Shown: positions 5,631 through 13,771 of the stretch, piece after piece | How positions within the stretch are numbered: the stretch's first letter is position 1 | Layout of the letters: each line of letters opens with the position of its first letter | DNA from: Rhizobiaceae bacterium | GTDB taxonomy: Bacteria; Pseudomonadota; Alphaproteobacteria; Rhizobiales; Rhizobiaceae | Assembly (NCBI GenBank): GCA_029212415.1 | Contig: JARGOF010000045.1 | Span: 1 to 46,103 of the forward strand | DNA length: 46,103 bases | Reading direction: 5' to 3' | Translations under genes and position numbers: made by a program | Notes under the pieces: model-generated | Seen by the model: only the letters and a program-made list of their open reading frames with translations | Database searches by the model: none | What the model was told of the DNA's origin: nothing

Positions 5631-6080
5631 TTGATTGGGGCGGCGCCGGCTTCCAGCTTTCCCATTTGAATGACAATCGACGCAGGCGTTGCCCCTGGGT
5701 TTCCCGTTGTTGCACGGATTGCCGCAACCTTCACTACGGGATTGTCACGTACTGACAGGGGCATTTCCCTGCCCGGGCATGGCCCGACATGCCTGCGAAA
5801 AACCGATCCACTAGCAGCCTGTCTTGCTTCGGATTTTCGCACATTTTCCTGTACCTCTGCGTGATCTGATGCGATAATCAGCGAATTGCTCCCGGCAAAA
5901 TACAAGGGGTGCAATGGTTCAGCATGGGCGTGACGATACGCAATCGATCAAATTGGGGGTCTTGGGGAAAGACCGTTGATTGTCATGGAGCGCCTAAAGA
6001 CAAGCCGTGCAGGATCAGATCTATCAAGGGACTGTCTCCAGGGATGGGAGACAGATGTATCGAATTTACAAGAGAGGGAT
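5631..6080. other. Intergenic region, no gene recognised
   Basis: About 450 bp between the ROK gene and the secreted VHL-like protein. A short inverted repeat, GGCATG-6 nt-CATGCC (5776-5793), could be a weak terminator for the ROK gene. Open frames here on either strand lack homology-like patterns and sensible starts. Confidence 0.35.
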
Positions 6081-6926
6081 ATGACGATGTTTTCACATTT
6101 GAAGTGCGGTTTGCTGGCGTTTTGTCTGGTATTGTTCAGCCAGGCAGCTTCGGCGCAGGTTAAAGAAACCGTCTACGCCCACGTGCGTGGATGGACAGTG
6201 GTGACAGCCACGGAATATGGAAACTTTCAGGGTTGCGGGATGTCACGTGGCAATGGTGCCTTTGACATTATTCTTGGCATTGACAATGCGGGCAACTGGA
6301 ACATCGGCTTCCCTTCCAGCACGCGGCAAGGCGGACGCGTTAACGTCGATATGGATATCGATCGGATGAGCGACGTGGTGACCCTGCAGGCGAAAGTAGG
6401 CTTCGCTTTTGGACTGACGTCTCCCAGTTGGGTGGGCGCAATAGCCAGCGGACGCCACATGAGTGTGCTGATGGAAGGCCGCAGGCACGACATTTCCCTG
6501 AACGGCACAACCGCTGCCATTCACAAGGTTGAAGAATGTGCCGGCCGATATGTCCGGGTGGCTTCGATTGCCCGCAACAACCGCGCGGCAGCACCAAAGG
6601 CCCCGCAGCAGCGCGCAGTCGCCCCGGTTGAGCGTGATGTGGCCAGGATGGGCTCCGGCTGCCCCGCCTATGGCAGCCTGCGTTCACCCAATGTACAGGA
6701 CTGGGGTGAAGTGAACTTCACCAACCGCACGGATCGCGCCCTGAACATCGCCTGGCTCGACTACCAGGGCAACAATGTTGATATGGGTGGCATTCTGCCG
6801 GGCGAAACGCTGTCGCTGAACTCCAATGCCGGTCACATGTTCATTGCAAAAGATTTCAGTGGAAGTTGCATCGGCGGCGTGTGGACATTGGGTGTGGGTC
6901 AAAATCAGTTCGATATTTACCAATAG
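6081..6926 (+). CDS. Secreted protein with C-terminal VHL beta-like domain
   Basis: 281 aa from the ATG at 6081 (GAGAGG upstream), giving a clean signal peptide (hydrophobic LLAFCLVLF, cleavage after ASA near residue 25). Residues about 26-160 are an unknown beta-rich domain with two conserved-looking Cys. A Pro/Ala/Arg linker follows (about 165-190). Residues about 192-281 align without gaps, by hand, with the beta domain of human VHL: N215-R216 with N78-R79, W225 with W88, G230 with G93, P240-G241 with P103-G104, S248 with S111, G251-H252 with G114-H115, D258 with D121. Y98 and W117 of VHL become Met and Phe. Probably periplasmic; function unknown. Confidence 0.82.
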   Translation: MTMFSHLKCGLLAFCLVLFSQAASAQVKETVYAHVRGWTVVTATEYGNFQGCGMSRGNGAFDIILGIDNAGNWNIGFPSSTRQGGRVNVDMDIDRMSDVVTLQAKVGFAFGLTSPSWVGAIASGRHMSVLMEGRRHDISLNGTTAAIHKVEECAGRYVRVASIARNNRAAAPKAPQQRAVAPVERDVARMGSGCPAYGSLRSPNVQDWGEVNFTNRTDRALNIAWLDYQGNNVDMGGILPGETLSLNSNAGHMFIAKDFSGSCIGGVWTLGVGQNQFDIYQ

Positions 6927-7474
6927 ACCCACCGCTCACTCCGCCTGAATTCTGGCTGGACCCTATCACAAGGACCAGCGCGGCTTGGTATGAGCCGCGC
7001 CCAGTTTGCGTCCTGGACCGTATCCACAGACTTGGTCCGAAGAGGATCAAGGATGCGATATTGGCGAACGCTGAAAGGACCTGGTGATCGCAGACGCGCA
7101 AGCGCGGATTTATGCCATACTCGGTGATTGACGTTTGATGTTGCCTCATCTGTGACGCTGAAGAAGATATAATCGGTTTTGCCACAACCAACTTGCGCTC
7201 GTTTGGTGGGGCGAAAGCAACAGCCTATGATGATAAAGTGTGCGATGTTTGCGCGAAGAATGGGCTGCTGATCCACTTTTATCACGATCAATTGCGATAC
7301 GTCGCCAGCATCGAGATGCACTTACTTCGCCTGCGCGCGGCACCACAGTCTGATCGCATCTGCTTTGGAACAAGTGATTGATTGATCAAATTGAATCCCA
7401 TGGCGTTATCGATTGACTCTTGACCCAGGATACTCAACTACTGACCCTTGGATTATTATAGTGGGGGAAAGTGC
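6927..7474. other. Intergenic region, no gene recognised
   Basis: About 550 bp with no convincing coding signal. A 62-codon frame at 7193-7381 (TTG start) has two Cys but no ribosome binding site or recognisable family, so I do not call it. No strong hairpin or repeat was seen. Confidence 0.4.
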
Positions 7475-7804
7475 GTGAAGCGCTATGCTGTTGTTTTGTC
7501 TATTCTCCTCATGTCCGTGGGGTGCGCCAAGCGCCCAGACGCGATTACGCCTGTGTCAATGCCCAGCGATGTCTATACATTGATGGGGTGCAGCAAGCTC
7601 AGTGATGAACTCACCCGAGAACAGCAGAACCTGGATACGCTTTCGCGCGCTCAAAACGATGCGGCAACCGGCGACGCTCTCGGTGTGTTTTTGGTCGGCC
7701 TGCCCCTCGCAAGTGCGACTGGCGGCGACAAGGAAGGGCTGATCGCAGTATCGAAAGGCAAGGTGCAAGCGCTCGAGAGCGCGAAGCTGCGAAAAGGCTG
7801 CTGA
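7475..7804 (+). CDS. Small putative lipoprotein, unknown function
   Basis: I take the GTG at 7475 as start because GGGGGAAA precedes it at good spacing and the product then opens with Lys-Arg and a hydrophobic core (VKRYAVVLSILLMSVGC), a lipoprotein signal with the Cys at about residue 17. The mature part (about 90 aa) is mostly helical and has a Gly-rich stretch (VFLVGLPLASATGG) and a C-terminal RKGC. The pattern resembles small conserved lipoproteins of unknown role in alphaproteobacteria. It stands alone, with gaps on both sides. Confidence 0.72.
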   Translation: MKRYAVVLSILLMSVGCAKRPDAITPVSMPSDVYTLMGCSKLSDELTREQQNLDTLSRAQNDAATGDALGVFLVGLPLASATGGDKEGLIAVSKGKVQALESAKLRKGC

Positions 7805-8283: not shown

Positions 8284-9108
8284 TCAAACCTTGTCGGCGA
8301 CCGAGCGACCGAAATCGGCGAGTCCGCGCTGACGCATCCGCAATGGCCAGAGTTCGCTGATCTCTTGCGAAGCCTGCCGCAACGCCTCGGCCAGTTCTGT
8401 CCAACGCCCCTTGTGAATGCGAACCAGCGGACCGGCGATGGAAATCGTTCCGGCGATCGGATCATCTTCGCCAGAGCCCGAACGGAACGGCACGGCGAGT
8501 GCAGCCGTACCCGCCTCAGCCTCTTCCACAGAGATGCCAAAACCCAAAGCACGGGTTTCGTTCAACCGCCCCCGCAATTCGTCAACATTGCGCGCACTGT
8601 TCGGACCAAGCACGCGGTCCGTTCTGAAGCCGCGCGAATAAACGATGGAAAGCGCTTCTTCCTCGGGCAAGGTCGCCAACCAGGCTTTGCCGTTTGCCGT
8701 TGCATGGAGGACAACCTGCTGGCCCATGTCGGGATCATAGCGCAGCCCTGTGACGGCGCCCTGCGCCCGCGCAACCCAGACAAGATCTTGTCCTTCCAGC
8801 ATGGCAAGCCGACAATATTCCTGCGTGTTTGCTGCCAGTCGGTTCAACACTGCCTGTATCACGTCAGGGACATTCCGGCTATCAAGATCGCGGAATGCCA
8901 GAACGCTCATCTTCAACGACAGTGCATATTTCTGGCTGGAGGGTTCCTGAATCACCCATCCATGATTGGCCATGGTTGTCACAAGACGGTGGGCGGCGCT
9001 GGGTGGAATATCCATGCGCGCAGCCAGATCGGAAAGCTCAAGCGCATCGCGTGCGCCGGCGAGAATATCCAACAAATTCAAACATCTGGAAACGGCCGCT
9101 ACAGTCAC
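8284..9108 (-). CDS. IclR-family transcriptional regulator
   Basis: 274 aa starting at a GTG (9108) with GGGAG seven bases upstream. Residues 1-65 are the IclR winged HTH (LELSDLAARMDIPPSAAHRLV), and the remainder is the GAF-like effector domain, including HATANGKAWLA and the late GTISIAGP segment. It is transcribed away from a TRAP transporter and sulfatase and should control them. Two palindromes built from TTCCA/TGGAA half-sites lie in the shared promoter region and are good operator candidates. The effector is likely the TRAP substrate or its breakdown product (inference). Confidence 0.95.
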   Translation of the reverse strand: MTVAAVSRCLNLLDILAGARDALELSDLAARMDIPPSAAHRLVTTMANHGWVIQEPSSQKYALSLKMSVLAFRDLDSRNVPDVIQAVLNRLAANTQEYCRLAMLEGQDLVWVARAQGAVTGLRYDPDMGQQVVLHATANGKAWLATLPEEEALSIVYSRGFRTDRVLGPNSARNVDELRGRLNETRALGFGISVEEAEAGTAALAVPFRSGSGEDDPIAGTISIAGPLVRIHKGRWTELAEALRQASQEISELWPLRMRQRGLADFGRSVADKV

Positions 9109-9144
9109 TGAAATTCTCCCTGTCTTGATAAGATATCAGCTTTA

Positions 9145-9157
9145 TTCCAATTTGGAA
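9145..9157. promoter_or_regulatory. Palindrome before iclR-type gene, candidate operator
   Basis: TTCCAATTTGGAA is a perfect palindrome around one central base, 37 bp upstream of the IclR start. It uses the same TTCCA half-site as the palindrome in front of the TRAP operon, but in the opposite orientation. Autoregulation is a common habit of IclR proteins; binding is inferred. Confidence 0.5.
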
Positions 9158-9353
9158 ACTATTTCTGATTTCACTTTATGGGTTTTCAGGGAGTCGTTTT
9201 CCAAACAGCAAAACACCAGGCAAATTTCACATAAATCGCACAATAATTGTTAGTTTTGAAATATTTCACTCTATATATTGATGATACTGAGACCAAGTTC
9301 CAACTCTACCGGTTTCCACTTTTGCGTTGACAGGCATAGGTGAATCGTCATTA

Positions 9354-9368
9354 TGGAATGACATTCCA
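9354..9368. promoter_or_regulatory. Palindrome before TRAP operon, candidate IclR operator
   Basis: TGGAATGACATTCCA is a perfect 15-bp palindrome ending 19 bases before the DctP start codon. TGGAAT/ATTCCA arms are typical of IclR-family operators. Its position overlapping the leader suggests repression of the TRAP-sulfatase operon. Confidence 0.62.
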
Positions 9369-9387
9369 AAAATGAAGGGTGGAGACT

Positions 9388-10401
9388 ATGAAAATACGTA
9401 ACATACTGGCTGCAGCCGCATTCATTGCGTTGCCCTGCACCGCATCAGCAGATCCGATCAAGTTGGTCTGGGCGGGACCGGCGCCTGAAAGAGACTCTCA
9501 GGTCCAGGCCATCGAACTCATGGGGGATTACCTGGAACGGGCTGCGCCTGGCGAATTTGACATCGAGGTCTTCGCCGGCGGCACATTGGTCAAGCAATCC
9601 GGTGTCTTGCCTTCTTTGCAGACCGGGGCCATCCAATTGGCCTATATCAATGCATTTGACGTATCATCTCTGGTCCCGGAATATGGCGCGCTGACAGCGG
9701 CCTATTCAGTGCGTGACCCATTGCACATGTGTTCGGTACTGAACGGCAAGATTGGTGATGATTTCAGTCAGGCTCTGGAAAAAAATGCCGGCGTGGTCTC
9801 CCTTGGCGCGACATTGTTCGGTTTGCGTCACGTGGCACTGCGCAAGGCAAAGGAGGTCAATACGCCAGCGGACCTCAAAGGCATCAAGCAACGCGAGCCG
9901 AATTCAGAAGCCTGGCAGCTTCAAGGTCAAGCCGTTGGGGCGAGCCCGACACCGTTGGCACTGGGCGAACTCTTTCTGGCGCTTCAGACCGGCACGGTGG
10001 ATGCCCATAGCCTGCCCATTCCGTCCAGCTACAATTTCAAACTCCACGAAGTCACCGAGCAGATCGTGCTGACCGGACATTATGTGAACCATCTGGTCCT
10101 GGTGATTTCTGCCGACAGCTGGAATGCACTGGACAAACGTCAGCAAGAGCTACTGCGCGAGGCGGCCGATGTCGCACGCATATTCAATGACCGCGCCAAG
10201 GTGAGGGGCGAAGAGGCACTGAAAGCGGTCTTCGAAGAGGCTGGCGTTTCGTTTTCCGTTCCGGACATTCCAGCTTTCATGGCCCACGCTGAGAAGGTCT
10301 ATGCCGACTCGGATTTCTCCAAAACCTGGAAAGCGGGACTTGCTGCAGAAATGGCCGCGACGCCCAGCGATAACCCCCGGTGTTTTCATCTGATGCCCTG
10401 A
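9388..10401 (+). CDS. dctP: TRAP transporter solute-binding protein, DctP type
   Basis: Periplasmic receptor of a tripartite ATP-independent transporter. I place the start at the ATG 9388 (GGTGGAG upstream) rather than the in-frame GTG at 9379. The 337-aa product has a signal peptide ending TASA-DP near residue 22. The family pattern is clear: FAGGTLVKQ, PSLQTGAIQLAYI, the DLKGIKQREPNSEAW strand carrying the usual carboxylate-binding Arg, and LGELFLALQTGTVDA. DctP receptors bind organic acids through that Arg, so an anionic ligand is likely. First gene of dctP-dctQ-dctM-sulfatase. Confidence 0.93.
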   Translation: MKIRNILAAAAFIALPCTASADPIKLVWAGPAPERDSQVQAIELMGDYLERAAPGEFDIEVFAGGTLVKQSGVLPSLQTGAIQLAYINAFDVSSLVPEYGALTAAYSVRDPLHMCSVLNGKIGDDFSQALEKNAGVVSLGATLFGLRHVALRKAKEVNTPADLKGIKQREPNSEAWQLQGQAVGASPTPLALGELFLALQTGTVDAHSLPIPSSYNFKLHEVTEQIVLTGHYVNHLVLVISADSWNALDKRQQELLREAADVARIFNDRAKVRGEEALKAVFEEAGVSFSVPDIPAFMAHAEKVYADSDFSKTWKAGLAAEMAATPSDNPRCFHLMP

Positions 10402-10460
10402 AGATAACCAATGGCCCGGCCGCGATCAGCGTCCGGGCACGTCTTTCCAAAGGCCACACA

Positions 10461-10931
10461 ATGTCATCGCTACAATTTGTCTCCAGGCTGATTTCAGCAT
10501 CCTTCTTTGCTGTGTCCATCATTGCCATTCTGCTCCAGGTCATTTTTCGCTATCTGCTTCAGTGGCCTTTGGGGTGGACAACGGAAGTTGCGATCAATGC
10601 ATTTTTGATTGGGTCCTGGTGGACCATCTGCCTGAATGTGCGGTTGCAGGATCATGTGAAGATCGGACTGGTTTTCGATCGTCTGCCCGTCTGGGCACAA
10701 CATCTCAGCCAGATTATCGCCTGCACATTTGCCGGTTGCATGTTGCTCCTGGCCCTGCCCGGAAGCCTTAAATATCTGGAGGTCGTGAACCGTCTTGTCA
10801 CAGGTGTGCTGAAGGTTCCGCTCTCATGGATCTACGTTGTTTTTACATTTTTCCTTTTTGTCGTCGGCCTTAGGCTCCTGCTGAATGCTGCACGATGCCT
10901 GCGCCTTTTCTATATCGGAGCCACAAAGTGA
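10461..10931 (+). CDS. dctQ: TRAP transporter small permease, DctQ type
   Basis: Four-helix membrane subunit, 156 aa from the ATG at 10461. Upstream in-frame codons back to 10380 overlap dctP and are hydrophilic, so I leave them out. Helices lie at about 10-30, 45-65, 85-105 and 125-145. GWTTEVAINAFLIGSWW and VRLQDHVKIGLVFDRLP are typical DctQ segments. The stop codon overlaps the DctM start (GTGA). Confidence 0.88.
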   Translation: MSSLQFVSRLISASFFAVSIIAILLQVIFRYLLQWPLGWTTEVAINAFLIGSWWTICLNVRLQDHVKIGLVFDRLPVWAQHLSQIIACTFAGCMLLLALPGSLKYLEVVNRLVTGVLKVPLSWIYVVFTFFLFVVGLRLLLNAARCLRLFYIGATK

Positions 10932-12223
10932 GCGTCGAATTTGGTGCCATGCTGGCACTGCTTGTTGCAGGCGCGCTCATGCGCTTGCCGATCGGTATCG
11001 CGCTGATCTCAGCCTCGATTGCCTATCTCTGGATGCGCGGCCTGCCATTGGTGGCAGTGACCAACACAATCATGCAGGGCTTTAGCTCGAATTTTGTTTT
11101 TCTGGCGATACCCCTGTTCATATTTGCGGCACAGGTGATGAACATTGGAACGATCACCGACAGATTGCTGGGTTTCGCGGTGGCTGTGGCTGGACGCACC
11201 AAGGGCGGACTGGCGCAGGTCAATGTGATCACCAGCCTGATCTTTTCCGGAATGAGCGGCAGTGCAACCGCCGATGCTGCGGGTGTGGGCACCGTGCTGG
11301 TCAAAATGATGCGCAAAAATGATCGCTATCCGGCAGGTTTTGCAGGTGCGGTCACCGCAGCATCCTCTGTCATCGGTCCGATCTTTCCGCCCTCGATACC
11401 CATGATCTACTATGCAATCTCCGCCGATACATCGGTTGGCGCGTTGTTTTTGGGAGGGATCATTCCCGCGCTGTTCATCACAGTGGCAATGATGGTCCTG
11501 AACAGTGTGATAGCCAGGCGCCGGAATTTCCCGATCGAGCCTGCGCAATCGTCTGGAGAAATTTTCACCCAGTTGCGCATTGCGATGCTTCCGTTGCTGA
11601 CACCGTTCATATTGCTGGGTGGTATCTATTCCGGTGTGATGACGCCAACCGAAGCGGCCGCGGTTGCCGCAGCCTACGCCATTATCGTTTCAATCTATTA
11701 CCGGGCGCTTGGATTCAAGGCCTTTTTCCGGGCATTGGAGGAAAGCGCTCGAAAGTCTGCCGTCGTGGTGATGATCATCGCCGGCGCTTTCATGTTCAGC
11801 TATGTCATCGCAATTGAGCGGCTTCCCAACACGCTTGTCGCATGGGTTTCTGATTGGGAAATCTCGGCGACAGCGTTTTTATTGCTGATCAATCTGATGA
11901 TTCTGCTTTTGGGAATGATCATGCCCGCGGCAACAATCCTGCTGGTGATTATTCCGGTGCTGGTTCCAGCCACCATGGCCATGGGTATCGATCCGGTCCA
12001 TTTCGGTGTCGTTATCGTGATCAACACGATGATCGGTCTCATTACACCGCCCTATGGGGTTCTTGTCTTTGTAACGTCCGCCGTCAACGACATCGATGCA
12101 TGGAGCATCATTCGCGAAATCGTTCCCTATATCGGTGTCTTGCTGTTTTGCCTGCTGACCCTTTCCCTCTTTCCAGAGATCGTCCTTTATCTGCCGAAAA
12201 CCTTTGGATACAGGCCATTGTGA
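10928..12223 (+). CDS. dctM: TRAP transporter large permease, DctM type
   Basis: Large Na+-coupled membrane subunit of about 431 aa. I prefer the GTG at 10928, which overlaps the dctQ stop (GTGA); an ATG at 10895 would add 11 residues. The sequence carries the DctM hallmarks: LFIFAAQVMN, MSGSATADAAGVG, SVIGPIFPPSIPMIYYA, a mid-protein PTEAAAVAAAYA and a late LITPPYGVLVFV. It makes about 12 membrane helices. It works with DctP and DctQ to import a small anion; the sulfatase downstream suggests a sulfate ester. Confidence 0.93.
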   Translation: MSVEFGAMLALLVAGALMRLPIGIALISASIAYLWMRGLPLVAVTNTIMQGFSSNFVFLAIPLFIFAAQVMNIGTITDRLLGFAVAVAGRTKGGLAQVNVITSLIFSGMSGSATADAAGVGTVLVKMMRKNDRYPAGFAGAVTAASSVIGPIFPPSIPMIYYAISADTSVGALFLGGIIPALFITVAMMVLNSVIARRRNFPIEPAQSSGEIFTQLRIAMLPLLTPFILLGGIYSGVMTPTEAAAVAAAYAIIVSIYYRALGFKAFFRALEESARKSAVVVMIIAGAFMFSYVIAIERLPNTLVAWVSDWEISATAFLLLINLMILLLGMIMPAATILLVIIPVLVPATMAMGIDPVHFGVVIVINTMIGLITPPYGVLVFVTSAVNDIDAWSIIREIVPYIGVLLFCLLTLSLFPEIVLYLPKTFGYRPL

Positions 12224-12337
12224 TGGATCACAAAGTGACCGCCCCCATCACAAGACCTTCCACACCGTTTATTTGCCTCCTGTGAAAGGCAGCACTGCAA
12301 TGTTTTTAAGCATTGAATTCAAAATTGGAGAGAGTTG

Positions 12338-13771
12338 ATGACTAAGCAACCGAACATCGTCTTCTTGATCACGGATCAACAACGCTATGATACGATCAGT
12401 GCTCTTGGATATCCGCACGTGGATACGCCGAACCTCGACCGTCTCGTTACCGAAGGCGTTCATTTTACCCGGTGCTATGCGGCGGCTCCCTCTTGCGTTC
12501 CGGCGCGTGCGTCGCTTTTCAGCGGCTACTACCCCCACACAACCGGCGTTCTCAACAATGCCGCTTCCTGGCAGAAAGGCTGGATAGAGGATCTTTCAGC
12601 GGCGGGATATGACTGTGTCAATGTCGGCAAGATGCACACCCAACCCATGGACGCACAGGCCGGTTTTCGCGCCAGAATGATCGTGGAAAACAAGGACCGG
12701 TCAATGGCAAAGCGTGGCCGCGATTTTATCGATGAATGGGACAAGGCCATACAGAAAGCGGGTTTTGAAAAGCCCGGTCTTCCAACCTATAGCAAATTAA
12801 ACGATTATGCTGATCGGCTGGGTGCCTTTGACTGGCCGCTACCGCGCGACCTTCATTCAGATGTATTTGTGGCCGATCTGGCAATCGACTGGATAGAGAA
12901 ATCCCGTCTCGAGGCACCGTTCTTTTTGCAAGTCGGATTTCCCGGCCCTCACCCGCCCTATGACCCGACAGAAGAAGACGTCGAACCCTATCTTGGCAGG
13001 GATCTGAAGATACGACCCGTGTCGGATGGTGATCTGCAAAGCCAACCGGTCGCCTTTCAGCGCCTGGCGGCCAAACATGCAGCGGGTGACCATGACGCGG
13101 TTCGCCACAAGATCGATGCGCCCGAACAGGAGAGGCATCGTCAGCGGGCCTATTATCTTGCAAATGTCACCATGATCGACGCTCAGGTTGGCAAGATCAT
13201 CGATGCATTGGAAAAAGCCGGCCAATTGGACGACACAATCATTGTCTTTACCTCCGACCATGGGGACAGCCTGGGAGACCATGGCCACAGCCAGAAATGG
13301 ACCATGTACGAAGAGGTCATAAAGCTGCCCCTGATCATATGGGGCCCTGGCGCATTCGCTGCCAAAGGCCCCGTTGACGGGCTGGTCCAGCATATGGATG
13401 TGGCGCCAACATTGTTCGAATTGGCCGGAATCACATTCCCGGAAGGCAGAGAGGCCCTTTCATTCGCCAAGGCGCTGAGGGGCGAACCATTTGAGGGCCG
13501 AGAGGCTATTTACTGCGAACAGGGTCTCGATGTCGTTTTTCAGTTCAGCAAATTTGTCTCCATGGTTCGAACATCTCGCTGGAAATATGTCCATCTTCTG
13601 GACGAAAATTTTGGACAACTCTTCGACTTGCTGGAGGATCCGCTTGAAGAGAACAACCTGTGGCGTGATCCCGACAAGACTGCAATTCGCGAGGAGATGC
13701 ACGAGCGACTGTTCAACTGGCGTCTGGAAAGCGGCTATCAGACACGCGATTGGGCAGAAACGGCAAGATGA
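12338..13771 (+). CDS. Sulfatase, formylglycine (Cys) type
   Basis: Alkaline-phosphatase-superfamily sulfatase, 477 aa, start at ATG 12338 (GGAG upstream; an in-frame TTG precedes it directly). Metal and catalytic elements: D13 in LITDQQ, C53 in the CVPAR motif where a maturase would make formylglycine, and D307-H308 in TSDHGD. No signal peptide is seen, so the enzyme should work in the cytoplasm on an imported ester. It follows dctM by about 115 bp in the same direction. The substrate could be choline sulfate, an aryl sulfate or a sugar sulfate; phosphonate monoester hydrolases share this fold and are an alternative. No maturase gene is in the window. Confidence 0.92.
   Translation: MTKQPNIVFLITDQQRYDTISALGYPHVDTPNLDRLVTEGVHFTRCYAAAPSCVPARASLFSGYYPHTTGVLNNAASWQKGWIEDLSAAGYDCVNVGKMHTQPMDAQAGFRARMIVENKDRSMAKRGRDFIDEWDKAIQKAGFEKPGLPTYSKLNDYADRLGAFDWPLPRDLHSDVFVADLAIDWIEKSRLEAPFFLQVGFPGPHPPYDPTEEDVEPYLGRDLKIRPVSDGDLQSQPVAFQRLAAKHAAGDHDAVRHKIDAPEQERHRQRAYYLANVTMIDAQVGKIIDALEKAGQLDDTIIVFTSDHGDSLGDHGHSQKWTMYEEVIKLPLIIWGPGAFAAKGPVDGLVQHMDVAPTLFELAGITFPEGREALSFAKALRGEPFEGREAIYCEQGLDVVFQFSKFVSMVRTSRWKYVHLLDENFGQLFDLLEDPLEENNLWRDPDKTAIREEMHERLFNWRLESGYQTRDWAETAR

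Follow-up and report, generated by a model that had tools for sequence, protein, structure and literature searches.

A probably exported protein of a Rhizobiaceae bacterium combines a predicted IalB fold with a VHL beta domain whose hydroxyproline pocket is derived

The hydroxyproline pocket of VHL lies at the core of animal oxygen sensing and provides a handle for many degrader drugs. In human VHL the hydroxyproline site is described as consisting of W88, Y98, H110, S111, H115 and W117, where the hydroxyl is bonded by S111 and H115, the carbonyl by Y98, and H110 contributes through its backbone (PMC9528729). Among animals W88, Y98, I109, S111, H115 and W117 are described as almost invariant (PMC6650433), and the literature reports that choanoflagellates and other protists lack animal VHL. 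VHL domains of bacteria are not new in themselves: they are found within Pfam, databases name such proteins "VHL domain-containing protein", and one of them, EMK97_00595 of the gammaproteobacterium Litorilituus sediminis, has been modelled and discussed with regard to tumour-suppressor use (PMC9002001). The accessible part of that article mentions no IalB partner and no conservation of the pocket across the family, and no report on pocket conservation in bacterial VHL domains was found in the open-licence literature. As for IalB itself, the location and mode of action of the Bartonella protein are described as unsettled (PMC6299047), and the IalB-domain protein RgsG of Sinorhizobium meliloti is presented as periplasmic, essential and located at the growing pole, its molecular function being unknown (PMC7327166). 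New here are the IalB fold predicted for the N-terminal half of a VHL-domain protein, the conservation of five pocket side chains in most of the bacterial domains and the derived pocket of one of its members.

The stretch of DNA analysed, called the window throughout, comprises 46,103 nucleotides of a Rhizobiaceae bacterium (assembly GCA_029212415.1, contig JARGOF010000045.1), and all features of the gene described below lie on its forward strand. The frame at 6081-6926 is translated into 281 amino acids and a stop codon with no internal stop. It is regarded as the whole gene of a probably exported two-domain protein on the basis of this translation, of an orthologue, 97% identical at the protein level, from a congeneric genome (G004, loci L002/L027) and of dN/dS. 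A probable ribosome-binding site, AGAGAGGG, was read by eye at 6071-6078; a second ATG at 6087 may be the true start, as its spacing from this site is better. Residues 1-25 (6081-6155) look like a Sec signal peptide ending in ...QAASA/QV, on a reading by eye and not by a signal-peptide program. They are followed by the N-terminal domain (residues 26-169, 6156-6587), by a linker rich in Ala, Pro and Arg (residues 170-192, 6588-6656), recognised from its sequence and from low pLDDT, which falls below 50 at residues 179-187 of the AF2 model, and by the VHL beta domain (residues 193-281, 6657-6923). This layout agrees with the initial annotation, which had proposed a modular protein with a signal peptide. 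A simple hydropathy rule locates a strongly hydrophobic stretch of 12 residues, starting within the first 100, in 71 of 76 family proteins. In the VHL domain Cys194 (6660-6662), kept in 34 of 34 bacterial domains, is likely to form a disulfide with Cys263 (6867-6869), kept in 32 of 34. Against the single 97% identical orthologue, dN/dS amounts to 0.124 for the whole gene and 0.038 for the VHL domain (one changing versus seven silent differences), so that the gene can be considered to be under constraint.

By sequence and predicted fold the C-terminal domain is a genuine VHL beta domain. In the HMMER alignment, residues 199-259 run gap-free along human VHL between N78 and D121, as the initial annotation had stated, and the residue assignments made at that time proved right: N78, R79, W88, L89, G93, P103-G104, S111, G114-H115 and D121 are matched, with Y98 replaced by Met and W117 by Phe. 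The expected match to Pfam PF01847 turned out to be borderline: against a gathering cut-off of 21 bits, the 281-residue protein scored 19.5 bits (E 9.8e-4), and the open frame 21.8 bits when the genome was searched. Such E-values, only borderline for the window protein alone, are what a fortuitous similarity between a small beta domain and VHL could draw on, but this explanation is hardly credible. VHL accounts for 24 of the 25 distinct PDB sequences that phmmer retrieved up to E 10, with 0.0076 as the best E, and the sole exception has an E of 1.4. A profile built from 22 further bacterial domains, the window protein being excluded and five pocket positions masked, recovered the domain in a search of one genome at E 4.2e-16. 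The whole-protein AF2 model, template-free and built on an alignment of bacterial sequences only, is weaker overall (mean pLDDT 71.0, pTM 0.49); its VHL domain is predicted with block means of 72-91 over residues 193-281 (86, 91, 91, 88, 89, 88, 85 and 86 within residues 201-280) and seven strands. Foldseek matched this model to 75 PDB chains at E <= 0.001, the best 50 of the 75 being all VHL, and the top VHL match reached E 6.7e-7 with an rmsd of 1.4 Å across 84 columns. It is the nearly pure VHL list of phmmer, the PF01847 match, the masked profile and the model that together raise the resemblance above chance. A borderline profile match is thus accompanied by a predicted VHL beta sandwich, and the fold first proposed for the domain is supported as a prediction. 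The protein stops at residue 281, shortly after the final strand predicted for the beta domain, and no alpha domain with an elongin-binding BC box is present; because of this absence it is not a pVHL, and the distance from ubiquitin biology that had been supposed is upheld.

The N-terminal domain had been left unnamed in the initial annotation, and a fold can now be proposed for it. A second AF2 model of residues 26-169, made from 13 sequences, reached a pLDDT of 89.0 and a pTM of 0.81, and its PDB matches at E <= 0.001 are six in number, all of them chains of Bartonella IalB 3dtd (TM 0.57-0.63, with 14-15% identity across the fold match). Cysteines 52 and 153 (C27 and C128 in alignment numbering) are invariant in the 13 aligned sequences. 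No entry of the IalB family (PF06776) appears among the Pfam and NCBIfam matches of the window protein up to E 10, and a weak Pfam match to DUF1176 has an E of 0.01. The N-terminal half thus has the predicted fold of Bartonella IalB, unseen by sequence searches. Its likeness to the N-terminal domain of "VPETD" relatives is no more than suggestive (hhalign E 5.5e-4 with probability 30, and E 2.4e-5 with probability 76).

A survey of taxonomic spread, proposed when the domain was first noticed, revealed PF01847 (E <= 0.001) in 53 genomes out of 297 sampled within the order, that of the window included, and in 7 of 398 genomes of a phylum sample; three of these seven fall within the same order, three within a different family of the class, and the last lies in a different class. 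Among relatives, 31 of 201 genomes matched at E <= 0.01, 27 of them above the cut-off. The 14 control genomes of these surveys gave no match. In the class of genome G426 the only match among 78 genomes is G426 itself, and a contig scan of genomes returned the orthologue as its only match. VHL domains are also carried by plasmids of the cyanobacteria Nostoc and Calothrix and of Jannaschia. Phage records gave no match, and exact peptide patterns from one relative, a narrow and weak test, were not found in viral contigs; two fold matches of viral models at E <= 0.001 were set aside (rmsd 19.5 and 22.0 Å).

To describe the pocket across bacteria, 80 domains were pooled: the PF01847 matches above the cut-off from the searches of relatives, phylum and order, without L011, together with L056 (under the cut-off), L023, L024 and L026 (retrieved solely by searching with the window protein), the second copy of L095 and three plasmid proteins. 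After removal of 13 domains at least 80% identical to a kept one, 67 non-redundant domains at <80% identity were left, that of the window included. The counts exclude L011 with its stop codon at the Trp117 position, L055, L057, two more matches under the cut-off from the search of relatives, and L103, which is the same protein as L083 (both L083 domains were counted); in L016-L019 and L025 no VHL domain was found, and they are not counted. W88 is present in 65 of the 67 domains, H115 in 62, W117 in 59 and Y98 in 49, and position 111 is Ser or Thr in 65 (Thr 56, Ser 9). All five side chains, with either residue allowed at 111, occur in 47 of 67 non-redundant and 52 of 80 pooled domains; when Ser is required at 111 the number falls to 3 of 67. 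Among 58 columns ranked by conservation W88 is first, H115 second, W117 third, Y98 eighth and S/T111 ninth, and five random columns rank as well with a frequency of 2e-5 in a permutation that ignores kinship; if the set is enlarged by His110 and Ile109 this frequency is 3.5e-4, under the same disregard of kinship. These two residues are not kept in the bacterial domains (H110 rank 30; I109 rank 21, Gln in 31 of 67). Hydrophobic neighbours of the pocket are kept, namely F76, F91 (F or Y, rank 16) and Y112 (Y or F, rank 10). The HIF-peptide contacts N67 (rank 53), R69 (42), P99 (36) and R107 (35) are not kept, and ten wider peptide-contact positions outside the five do no better than random (frequency 0.16).

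It is possible that selection by the search itself lies behind the conservation of W88, S/T111 and H115. For Y98 and W117 this can be discounted, because the window protein has neither of them and, used as the query, nevertheless retrieved 19 other places with a VHL domain, among which Y98 is present in 13 and W117 in 14 of the 16 counted (L002, L024 and the stop-bearing L011 being left out). A search with the pocket masked, covering 385 genomes of the class with at most 15 candidates scored per genome, found only the window domain and one new domain among the candidates scored. It is weak as a survey, but this single new case carries all five residues.

The same conservation might be structural, the five residues belonging to a core cluster of the sandwich with no ligand at all. 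Large aromatic residues are commonly retained for folding, the pocket side chains of VHL are described as buried (PMC9528729), which is a reason why they may be kept for folding, and N78, F76 and G93, all outside the five, rank 4-6 (F76 fifth). S/T111 and H115, however, are polar, and Y98 and W117 tend to be lost together in domains that stay in the family: Y98 is absent from 7 of 8 domains without W117 and from 11 of 59 with it (Fisher p 2.5e-4, uncorrected for kinship). Moreover, both counted proteins with two VHL domains (L083 and L095) have one copy with all five residues and another without. Such coupled losses and altered second copies favour, short of proof, a releasable ligand site over a folding core, and the structural explanation is considered improbable.

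Three further observations concern individual pockets. L095 (1733-2980) is arranged as VHL, IalB-like and VHL domains, and its first VHL copy has all five residues while the last is altered, similarly to that of the window. In L059 (52-2034), which comes from another class, a ricin-type lectin domain is fused to a VHL domain in which the five pocket residues are complete; by eye, a second, weak VHL-like copy seems to come next. In L011 (1426-1800, genome G029) a TGA stands at the Trp117 codon of an otherwise recognisable VHL domain; either the gene is broken or naturally truncated, or the sequence contains an error.

In the window's own copy the complete five-residue pocket is absent. According to the alignment of bacterial domains, Trp225 (6753-6755, VHL Trp88), Ser248 (6822-6824, Ser111) and His252 (6834-6836, His115) are kept, and Met235 (6783-6785) and Phe254 (6840-6842) stand at the positions of Tyr98 and Trp117, so that the pocket reads W, M, S, H, F. 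It is a derived pocket. The nearest relatives, L089 and L090 (47% identity), read W, F, S, H, W; at 36% identity each, the second domain of L095 reads W, I, A, H, F and L062 reads W, M, S, H, F, and in the Jannaschia plasmid copy the pocket is likewise changed. The initial annotation had asked whether the domain binds a proline-rich or modified peptide. This idea gains for the family, because 47 of 67 domains keep the five side chains (Ser or Thr at 111), and loses for the window protein, because two of the five residues are changed (Y98M and W117F). Judged from the residues, hydroxyproline binding is plausible for the bacterial family and doubtful for the window copy. The genome of the window holds a second VHL-like domain on contig 60, at the end of a long protein (L023, 7-1803) with weak SH3-like and PPC matches; it contains a 7-residue insert, and both H115 and W117 are replaced by Phe.

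Some bacterial VHL domains are fused to other domains, which point to the envelope or to the outside of the cell. MliC was found above the cut-off in L013, L049 and L056, LprI together with SH3_3 in L021, a ricin-type lectin domain in L059 and CVNH in one of 39 proteins (E 5.5e-5), and IalB-like domains are recognised in family proteins by their similarity to the window's N-terminal domain. Since these partners are of envelope and glycan types, they speak for the possibility that the same fold serves another ligand (a sugar, peptidoglycan or another envelope component), the pocket having been adapted to hydroxyproline later, in animals. Thr in place of Ser at position 111 of most domains, the lack of conservation of His110 and the half-changed pocket of the window copy point in the same direction. 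Against it, the best-kept positions ring the hydroxyproline and include the residues bonding its hydroxyl (of 67 domains, 65 have S/T at 111 and 62 have H at 115), a set which a sugar site would have no evident reason to keep; another ligand is on the whole unlikely, though it deserves to be reckoned with.

The lysozyme-inhibitor partners have also led to the idea of envelope protection, where the VHL domain would act with them against attackers, muralytic enzymes among them. Matches exceed the cut-offs in three proteins for MliC and in one for LprI, and of seven further proteins of similar length scanned singly five gave weak MliC matches (E 0.0012 to 0.14) and two none; in protein set A5 no MliC was seen at E 0.001, weaker matches coming up at a looser limit. 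Even so, the four proteins above the cut-off stand among the 76 of sets A1 and A5 (73 of them VHL proteins), and the Pfam scan of the window protein shows no partner of the MliC or LprI type; protection of the envelope is for these reasons a very improbable role.

As far as the neighbourhood is concerned, the window gene is flanked by a ROK/MarR-type regulator and a small lipoprotein-like frame. The latter (7448-7804) encodes 118 amino acids without a Pfam match, and in L027 an equally long frame (7368-7724) comes after the VHL gene. Among ten window frames scanned with Pfam none was hydroxyproline-related. Across 20 loci of 16 kb, where genes were called crudely as longest frames, no cluster recurs in more than 4 apart from the VHL proteins. 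Caspase-like proteins lie on both sides of the VHL gene of genome G102 (L118, 4445-7618 and 8147-10954, the same place as L044), and in genome G188 a frame similar to caspase-like proteins adjoins it (L112, 8773-11034); these neighbours were noticed among 128 sequences searched. Farther along the window, at 8284-13771, lies what looks like an uptake and desulfation cluster; it contains an IclR-type regulator and, divergent from it, a DctP-type solute-binding protein, together with two more frames and a sulfatase.

The explanation preferred here comes close to an even chance and is put forward tentatively: a Sec-exported protein with an IalB-fold and a VHL domain, belonging to a family which binds an imino-acid ligand, with the preference of the window copy shifted. 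The Sec route would take the protein to the periplasm or outside, where it would consist of an IalB-fold domain, a flexible linker and a VHL beta domain presumably braced by its disulfide. The VHL domain would be a member of a bacterial family of exported binding modules that keeps the aromatic, hydroxyl and imidazole side chains holding hydroxyproline in animal VHL, though not several residues reading the rest of the HIF peptide. Hydroxyproline or proline is the natural first guess for the family ligand, which may be either of them within a peptide, coming for example from wall and matrix proteins of plants and animals or from an envelope protein. In the window copy Ser and His, which would hold the hydroxyl, are kept; the hydroxyl of Tyr98 is lost and Trp117 is replaced by Phe, which may have shifted its preference. 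Against this explanation it must be said that Thr dominates position 111 in bacteria and full pockets with Ser are so few (3 of 67), that His110 (rank 30) and Ile109 (rank 21) are not kept, that the window copy differs at two of the five positions and that L023 has lost H115 and W117. The changed pockets of the nearest relatives and of the Jannaschia plasmid copy, the buried position of the pocket side chains, the permutations that ignore kinship, the ten scanned frames with no hydroxyproline-related gene and the 20 loci with no recurrent neighbour count against it as well. The rarity of Ser111 and the poor conservation of His110 and Ile109 also slightly lower the odds, both of this explanation and of a bacterial origin of the pocket.

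The broader proposal, in which widespread secreted bacterial readers of hydroxyproline or proline were built on the VHL domain, were ancestral to animal VHL and were retuned in the branch of the window, is unlikely in its full extent. If it were true, oxygen sensing would have taken over a ready-made bacterial hydroxyproline-binding site, and the pocket side chains would be largely common to bacterial readers and animal VHL. The conservation of most pocket side chains in probably secreted bacterial proteins raises two testable questions, whether there is a ligand other than HIF in bacteria and whether animal VHL was acquired from them. Small bacterial domains with all five residues might also become simple binding reagents. 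The window protein offers a natural pocket variant for comparison.

In comparison with the described systems, the window protein shares with the human VHL beta domain the predicted seven-strand sandwich, the gap-free correspondence from N78 to D121 and residues W88, S111 and H115. In contrast to human VHL, it has a probable signal peptide, a conserved cysteine pair and an IalB-fold partner, it is devoid of the alpha domain for elongin C, and it carries Met and Phe instead of Y98 and W117. With EMK97_00595 it has in common a bacterial VHL beta domain and predicted secretion (PMC9002001). MliC and LprI lysozyme inhibitors share a polypeptide with some bacterial VHL domains, whereas the window protein has none. 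Finally, IalB of Bartonella (3dtd) and RgsG of S. meliloti share the predicted fold of the N-terminal domain, with TM up to 0.63; identity to IalB 3dtd is low (14-15%), and what sets the window protein apart from both is the added VHL domain.
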